Below, piece after piece: positions 41,113-44,100 of a stretch of DNA of 64,000 bases. Origin of the DNA: Tubulanus polymorphus (taxonomy: Eukaryota > Nemertea > Palaeonemertea > Tubulaniformes > Tubulanidae); assembly GCF_964204645.1 (NCBI RefSeq), contig NC_134031.1:14593307-14657306 (forward strand). The letters run 5' to 3'. The notes under the pieces were generated by a model that was not told where the DNA came from, made no database searches, and saw only the letters and a program-made list of their open reading frames with translations. The stretch's first letter is position 1. Every line of letters begins with the position of its first letter. Made by a program: the position numbers and the translations under genes.

Positions 41113-44100
41113 TTAAGTAGTCATTTTTGGCTGCTCAATCTTGAAGACATTTTGAATCCTGTAAATCATGACATTGCATAAGCTTACCAGGATGTTTTGT
41201 GAGTTTGGTTTGAAACTTGCGGTTACCCATTCTAACATGAGCACCACTAACCCAACCCCTGTGCCGATATAGATTATCCAAAATATGCCCCATAAAGCGT
41301 CCATTTGAACCTCTTGGGTCTCGCTAACTCCGGGCTTCGTCGCAGTTTTCGAACAATTTGCTGTTTGATAAAGCCTTATAAAACAAAAAACAAACTCCTA
41401 AGTTTAAGCGACGCCATAAGCTTAGATTATCCCTGGGCAGTTTCACGAAAGTTAAACTCAAATTTTTGGTGTAATTGCCATTGGTTACTTCATGTTTTCA
41501 ATGCGGACAACAATTCAAACTTAACCGTTTTAGGCTTAACATTTTCCTGAAACTGGGCCCTGGTAATGAGGAGATTAAATTCCACAATATCGTCGTTTGA
41601 AGTATGACGCCACTTTTCAAAATATAAGATAATAAACTACTTTGCACTCACTTTGAGTCAAACTAATCGTCGGAAATAGCTGTGCCCCCCGCACACTGAG
41701 TGAGATCATGACTCGCAACACTATGGAGCTGGGACCATAAGTTACGACTACCATATTGAAGCAATCATGGTATTACGAAAGCTACAACATTTCTAAATAT
41801 TTCCACGGAATATTTTGCCCTACCCCAACTCAGAATCTCATCTCAGGTTCTTAACTCACCATTTATTATCCAAAATATCTATGAATCCCGATTCACGATA
41901 TTGTAGAATTTTAATTGATAATTCCTCGGCGTAAATGGAACCTTTTGGAAGCGGGAATCCATAACCGACTCCAGCAAAACCATTCTCTACAACCTGCAGA
42001 CGACATCTCTGACCTTTAACAACGAGAAACAATGAATAATACTGACTTAAAAATGAGTATTTTTTTCTAATATCAAAATCATTATAATTTCAATAAATGG
42101 ACAGATTGTACTTCGTTCCGGGTTAACTGATTTTAGACACTACGAAAGATATTACGAGTTTTCACGTCCAGTGCAAAGAGTAGCTTCATCAAATTTCGAC
42201 CCTTTCAAAGTGTATTTTATTTACCTTTCCAATAATTGAGAACTGGTAGATCGTACAAGAACGCGAAGCTGCCGTTTTGTTGGTCCGTGTAAGCAATCGC
42301 TTCTGCCGTGTTTGAAAAGTATAATCCCTCCTTGCGCATGTTGTCTCCTATTTGTCTGACGGAGGAAATATATATATATATATCGAATGAAAAGATAAAC
42401 TGCTTTAAAACCACAAACATTGTCTGTATTCTATCTGTTTGTATTCTAAATTTCGTACGTAATAATTATGACAATAGACTTTATTTCAAAATAGCGATAT
42501 TTTCTAGAATATAACACTAAAAAGTATGTGTAAAAATAGGTTGTCATGTGGAACTGGTGGCGGGAGCGCAGAGCCGTCGGAAGGAATTTTTCAGTGGCGA
42601 GGCTTATTTCTGAAGGGTGGTTCCGACGTTCCCCTGTTCCGACGACCCTGGAGTGTAGCCTTTACCTGTACGGATATCTTTCTGCCGTGTCGAAGAATAG
42701 ATGAGGTTGTGAATCGTTGACAGTGCTGTATTTGATATCAGTTCGTCTCATTAGATCATCGATTGAGTGAATCGTTTCCGGTGAAGATTTTATCGTGAGA
42801 AATGCGGCTAAATTAGCCGTATAAGTAGCTGTTATAATCAGTGTACCGAACCACCAGGCAGATGCAGCTACCCGACCTGTGAAATATGATAATCACTGTA
42901 ATCATAAATCACCAGACAGGTGCAGCTACTCGGCCTGAGGTAGCTTCAGATAGCCTACTTGAGGTAGCTTCACGTAGCCTATCTGAGGAAGCTTCACGTA
43001 GCTTATCTGAGGAAGCTTCACGTAGCCTCTCTGAGATAGCTGCACGTAGCTTATCCGAGGAAGCTTCATGTAGCCTATTGTTTCATATGTTTAAAAACTG
43101 TAACGACCACTTGGGGGTCAAATTCACGAACACTTAGTTTGGATATCAATATATGTATATATATATATATATATATATATATATATATATATATATATAT
43201 ATATATATATATATATATATATATATATATATATATATATATATATATATATATATATATATATATATATATCAGACCACGACGAGTACCAGCGCGAGAC
43301 ACTCACCTGACCACGAGTCTGGGTGCGGGTTAACGCCTTGTTGTAAATAACAACCAGCCGTCCAGAAAAAACTATTGAACAAACTGTGAACATGTTTCTC
43401 TTTGTTCCAGTGAAATATCTCCCATTCGTCGACCTCGCCATCCTCGTTAGTATCCATGACGTCATCGTCAGGGTCGAAAAATCCCAGTTGTACTTTACGA
43501 CCTGGAACACGATTATATATCCTGCTGATAATGTATCAAATCCCGCGATTGGTGGGAATTGTTTTATATAATGGGTTTAAGCACTATCAGTATTGCATTG
43601 AATTTGGAATCAGTGGTTCCTGATCCGAAATTGATTTAGAGACTATTGTTATCAAAGAATGAATAATGAATGTTCTTGAATATTCACCACATCTGATTGG
43701 TCACGACAGCCGAATGGTCACTACACCGACCAGACTAACTTACAAACTTTGTCATTCACGACTGGTCTATGGTCTAGTTGTCAGCATGCTTGGCCGGTAC
43801 GCTGGGGGAAGCAGGTTCGAGTCCCCAGATAGGTGGAGCGGGTTAGTGCTATGTAGGACCTAGGTTTGCGCTCGAGGATTTTTTTGGTGGAGAATTTACC
43901 AATTTTTTTGAATTAATAACTGCCTTCGAAAACTCGTGGTTAAAGTTCTTACACGCGCTATCGTCGGTCAACTTTTGAACAACTAGACCAAACGGGACCC
44001 GTGATACCTCACCCTCCGTACCGTGATGCCCGAATGGACTCAACGTTTCCGATGTAGCCACGACCAGCGACACAATAATTCCCGTAGTCAACACGTACAA

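Follow-up and report, generated by a model that had tools for sequence, protein, structure and literature searches.

Where glutamate receptors are known to respond to cytoplasmic Ca2+, the sensing is done by separate proteins, among them calmodulin and CaMKII. In the AMPA receptor subunit GluA1, the loop between M1 and M2 (loop 1) is cytoplasmic and contains a CaMKII control site, S567 (PMC5022001, in excerpt), and loop 1 of AMPA receptors is described as short (PMC10533411, in excerpt). The M1-M2 loops of ionotropic glutamate receptors (iGluRs) vary, with an insertion in the Epsilon iGluRs, and the cysteine-rich loop of ctenophores is the most distinct (PMC6307864, in excerpt). Linker EF-hands have been described in the two-pore channels TPC1 and TPC2, and in plants the second of these is required for Ca2+-dependent gating (PMC11085791, in excerpt). 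Among the open-access papers listed, no title or abstract opening reported an EF-hand in the linker of an animal iGluR, and the excerpts of PMC5225553 and PMC13153358 contained nothing on the motif.

A putative EF-hand-like loop is described here in the M1-M2 linker of a receptor gene of the nemertean Tubulanus polymorphus, located in a window of 64,000 nucleotides (the whole stretch of DNA that was analysed). A first-pass annotation of this DNA had taken the linker to face the cytoplasm and to be short in iGluRs, in agreement with GluA1 loop 1 (PMC5022001, in excerpt) and with the AMPA receptors (PMC10533411, in excerpt). The gene model was assembled by eye (Table 1), and its 17 joined exons encode 938 residues without a stop. 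Pfam matches to ANF_receptor (PF01094, 226.6 bits), Lig_chan-Glu_bd (PF10613, 98.5 bits), and Lig_chan (PF00060, 108.8 bits), all above cut-off, identify the predicted product as an intact ionotropic glutamate receptor. GluA2 was the top PDB sequence match to the full-length protein (331 bits), and the best 60 of 501 matching PDB sequences were all GluA (AMPA) or kainate 2 subunits. Judged by these matches, the receptor is a divergent AMPA/kainate-like iGluR of the AKDF (AMPA/kainate/delta/phi) group, closer to AMPA and kainate receptors than to NMDA receptors. A phi clade of iGluRs exists in lophotrochozoans (PMC12226733, in excerpt).

Alignment with GluA2 places a glutamine at the Q/R site of the window receptor. 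In AMPA receptors, glutamine at this site accompanies calcium permeability. At the agonist-contact sites (exons 10-15, GluA2 numbering), the same alignment shows T480 and R485 retained, with A in place of P478, D in place of E705, and Q/P in place of S654/T655. Because these residues are partly changed relative to GluA2, the identity of the ligand is uncertain, and it may be other than glutamate.

Two details of the gene model were decided by eye. The chosen end of exon 7 leaves a GC-AG intron (45492-45674, donor GCAAGT) between exons 7 and 8, and an alternative end was rejected because it introduced two stops into the joined frame. The exon 10/11 junction adds four residues (RGNT) that are absent from GluA2, so this junction may be off. 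Several tandem arrays accompany the gene in addition to the microsatellite of Table 1: a second long (AT)n array of 74 copies in an intron (48081-48228), a 24-bp unit repeated six times within the intron that follows exon 12 (42935-43078), 8.2 copies of a 28-bp unit in an intron (50589-50818), and 2.6 copies of an 84-bp unit just beyond the end of the gene (40658-40878). Elsewhere in the window there are two long uninterrupted GPCR reading frames, at 37748-38782 (-), with Srw as the best Pfam match, and at 60439-61548 (+), with 7tm_1 as the best match. At 31456-33909 (-), TPR repeats occur in an open frame of 818 residues, whose CHAT-domain match of 22.9 bits falls just under the cut-off of 24, and Pfam carbonic anhydrase matches occur at 54985-55242 and 57303-57512 (+).

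Table 1. Receptor gene features, in positions of the window
Feature	Position	Strand	Remarks
Whole receptor gene	40983..51928	-	17 exons, 938 aa, exons chosen by eye; Pfam domains
Exon 7	45675..45839	-	End set by eye; GC-AG intron next
Exon 11	44013..44265	-	S1 end, M1, SPFGHHGTE opening the linker
Exon 12	43307..43501	-	195 nt, AG/GT borders, phase 1/1; most of the M1-M2 linker and the pore loop (M2)
EF-hand-like loop (putative), receptor residues 625-636	43419..43454	-	Exon 12, M1-M2 linker
Post-loop stretch, 19 residues	43362..43418	-	Predicted helix continuing into M2; linker conserved in its second half in the sister paralogue
(AT)62 microsatellite	43149..43272	.	Begins 34 bp into the intron after exon 12
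Exon 13	42666..42876	-	M3 (TYTANLAAF) and start of S2

The 12-position loop that the annotation had read in exon 12 (Asp1, Asn3, Asp5, Gly6, Val8, Asp9, Glu12) was recovered by both translation and pattern matching, and its residues, D1 N3 D5 G6 V8 D9 E12, are a full match to the 12-residue EF-hand consensus. Its position within the M1-M2 linker of an iGluR was borne out by the intact gene, the Pfam domains, and the GluA2 alignment. The linker has 56 residues, 13 of them acidic. As had been noted, the loop shares its exon with the pore, and the frame is kept at both junctions. The pore loop was said to follow the EF-hand loop at once; it does lie downstream in the same exon, but the two are 16 residues apart, measured to a 12-residue pore-loop segment (13 residues to FNSFFW).

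The reading favoured here, tentatively and at somewhat less than an even chance, is that the linker holds a gene-specific acidic insert, in which a complete loop was set upon an inherited acidic helix start and which would bind Ca2+ and feed back on gating or trafficking. Its most serious competitor regards the linker as an acidic spacer, mostly disordered and evolving fast, that binds nothing specifically, with the EF-hand match a by-product of composition; this is nearly as probable as the favoured reading. The composition argument was examined using PROSITE PS00018 and a stricter pattern of our own. The 938-residue receptor contains a single match, at residue 625, and no second one. When the 56-residue linker was shuffled 200,000 times, composition alone gave the pattern in 347 cases and the strict form in 16, which speaks against a by-product even though the motif was picked post hoc; for shuffles of the 25-residue acidic core, the figures were 677 and 21 of 200,000. 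Six-frame open reading frames of at least 30 aa from the window and loci L033-L057 (234,118 residues) gave two pattern matches, one of which is this loop. All of these figures are uncorrected for the choice of the motif after the sequence had been seen, and they therefore serve as guides, not as significance levels.

Domain-level searches went the other way. Pfam EF-hand_6 scored 12.2 and 12.8 bits on two linker peptides, below its cut-off of 25, a result that favours a spacer. No EF-hand family was matched in Pfam, at E up to 10, by either the exon 12 peptide or the whole protein, and a search of the linker against PDB sequences returned one match only, which is not an EF-hand protein. AlphaFold2, run on the exon peptide as a single sequence, gave a model of low confidence (mean pLDDT 63.1), and a Foldseek search with this weak model found no fold match in the PDB. 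The model predicts a helix over exon-peptide residues 25-55, beginning at loop position 10 and extending across the pore segment. This is also where the exit helix of an EF-hand begins. The same model shows no evident entering helix, with only three helical residues ahead of the loop; the stretch preceding the loop, FFDPDDDVM, is acidic and contains a proline. Lone EF loops are often poor Ca2+ binders. On these grounds, the motif is a canonical EF-hand-like calcium loop, putative in function, and not a member of an EF-hand family. The EF-hand identity proposed at first stands with respect to the loop consensus, but not with respect to the Pfam score; an entering helix is not evident, and the complete loop is absent from the other 20 linkers compared.

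Those linkers came from the same genome, Tubulanus polymorphus, to which the comparison is confined. A PF00060 profile search of the 268-Mb assembly gave 76 exon-level matches, from which 21 linkers were trimmed by eye, 18 of them in addition to those of the window gene and two relatives; the set leaves out the NMDA-like genes (C1:358k, C1:500k, and others) and the remaining genes. The EF-hand pattern occurs in 1 of these 21 linkers, that of the window gene, as would be expected of a by-product in a spacer. The variation of M1-M2 loops in Epsilon iGluRs and ctenophores (PMC6307864, in excerpt) points the same way. On the side of the favoured reading, the linker of the window gene is longer, with 56 residues versus 19-31 in the 18 others, as trimmed by eye. 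Another candidate, WDGDGDE in the linker of L017, a gene that we take to be IR25a-like, was rejected, as the pattern does not match it. Searches with the exon against prokaryote and viral collections, aimed at any contaminating animal DNA in them, gave 21 and 12 stretches with the pattern, respectively, none of them a relative.

Acidic residues number 13 in the linker of the window gene and 12 in that of its sister paralogue, compared with 5 in a relative on C12 and 1-6 in the 18 others. These counts lend some weight to an electrostatic role at the inner pore mouth, in which the acidic linker of each subunit would draw in cations or polyamines and thereby adjust rectification and conductance, no true Ca2+ site being involved. 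The sister, acidic but with an incomplete loop, fits such a role, whereas the exact spacing of the ligands, with G6 and V8, is left unexplained by charge; the explanation is considered quite unlikely.

The sister was the only genomic match to the exon peptide besides itself at E up to 10, with 40% identity over 45 residues. A tree was built from the M1 and M3 segments, excluding the linker; 28 genes were entered, 2 with fewer than 60 aligned residues were dropped, and many of the 26 remaining receptor rows are incomplete. In this tree, the sister of the window gene is the gene at C7:4.98 Mb (L032, L033; ultrafast bootstrap 94), and the relative at C12:2.97 Mb comes next (78). A phase-1 intron interrupts the sister no more than three codons from the position in the window gene, as placed by eye, and in both genes 46 residues separate HHG from the two residues preceding the pore tryptophan. 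Its Q/R site has G in place of Q. The linker of the C12 relative, spliced by eye, has 44 residues, of which 9 are basic.

An alignment of the sister and window linkers without gaps has 8 of 46 residues identical, and 144 of 100,000 shuffles were as good. When the alignment was divided in half, a split made post hoc, the second half (beginning at loop position 4) retained 8 identities in 25 residues, matched by 0 of 100,000 shuffles, and the first half (including loop positions 1-3) had 0 in 21, matched by 99,989 of 100,000 and equivalent to random. At loop positions 1, 3, and 6, the sister has V, A, and T, and it lacks the EF-hand pattern. The contrast between the two halves indicates that both genes inherited the final part of the loop together with the predicted helix that follows it, and that the complete ligand set is particular to the window gene among the linkers compared. 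The difference may reflect a gain in the window gene or a loss in the sister. The unconserved first half suits a non-binding spacer, and the conserved second half argues against one. The proposed check for loops in other iGluRs and their placement on a tree was carried out within this genome, where none of the 20 other linkers has the complete loop and the sister shares the second half.

A mis-splice had been discounted at the outset, and the sister makes one unlikely, because it has nearly the same intron position and an equally long linker. That exon 12 is alternatively spliced so as to exclude the loop is very improbable: the exon is symmetric and a long (AT)n tract starts 34 bp beyond its donor, but skipping it would also delete the pore, and the exon of the paralogue has a near-identical layout with an equal linker length.

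If the gene-specific insert with a complete loop is the correct reading, a sequence of events can be outlined. Ca2+ entering through the Q-type pore would reach the loop, which probably binds it at the inner mouth of the pore. As a lone loop it would probably bind Ca2+ weakly, and better if the loops of neighbouring subunits pair. Binding would stiffen the beginning of the helix that leads into M2 and could thereby alter gating, Ca2+-dependent inactivation, or trafficking. A bolder form of this proposal, which is unlikely, lets the pore-forming subunit sense Ca2+ by itself: EF-hand loops on the cytoplasmic side, at most four in a channel and each running on into an M2 pore helix, would read the entering Ca2+ and directly control gating or inactivation, with neither calmodulin nor a kinase as an intermediary. 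If true, a Ca2+ loop in the segment leading into the pore would constitute a direct sensor, and the loop would offer a simple way of finding out whether the M1-M2 linker is able to gate the pore.

Compared with the described systems, the window linker occupies the same place before M2 as loop 1 of GluA1 and GluA2 and is, like it, cytoplasmic (PMC5022001, in excerpt). The GluA2 chain has 32 residues over the span that takes up 56 in the window receptor, as measured by eye. Loop 1 of GluA1 and GluA2 has no EF-hand loop, and calcium works there via a kinase. The Epsilon iGluRs and the ctenophore loop share with the window gene a lengthened intracellular M1-M2 loop, and the excerpts of the same source do not describe the Epsilon insertion as Ca2+-binding (PMC6307864). 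The window protein itself falls with AMPA and kainate 2 subunits among the best 60 of its 501 PDB matches, which bears at most indirectly on the Epsilon receptors. Two-pore channels resemble the window gene in carrying an EF-hand or EF-hand-like motif within the linker of a cation channel (PMC11085791, in excerpt), and they differ from it in having two EF-hands and in belonging to a different channel family.
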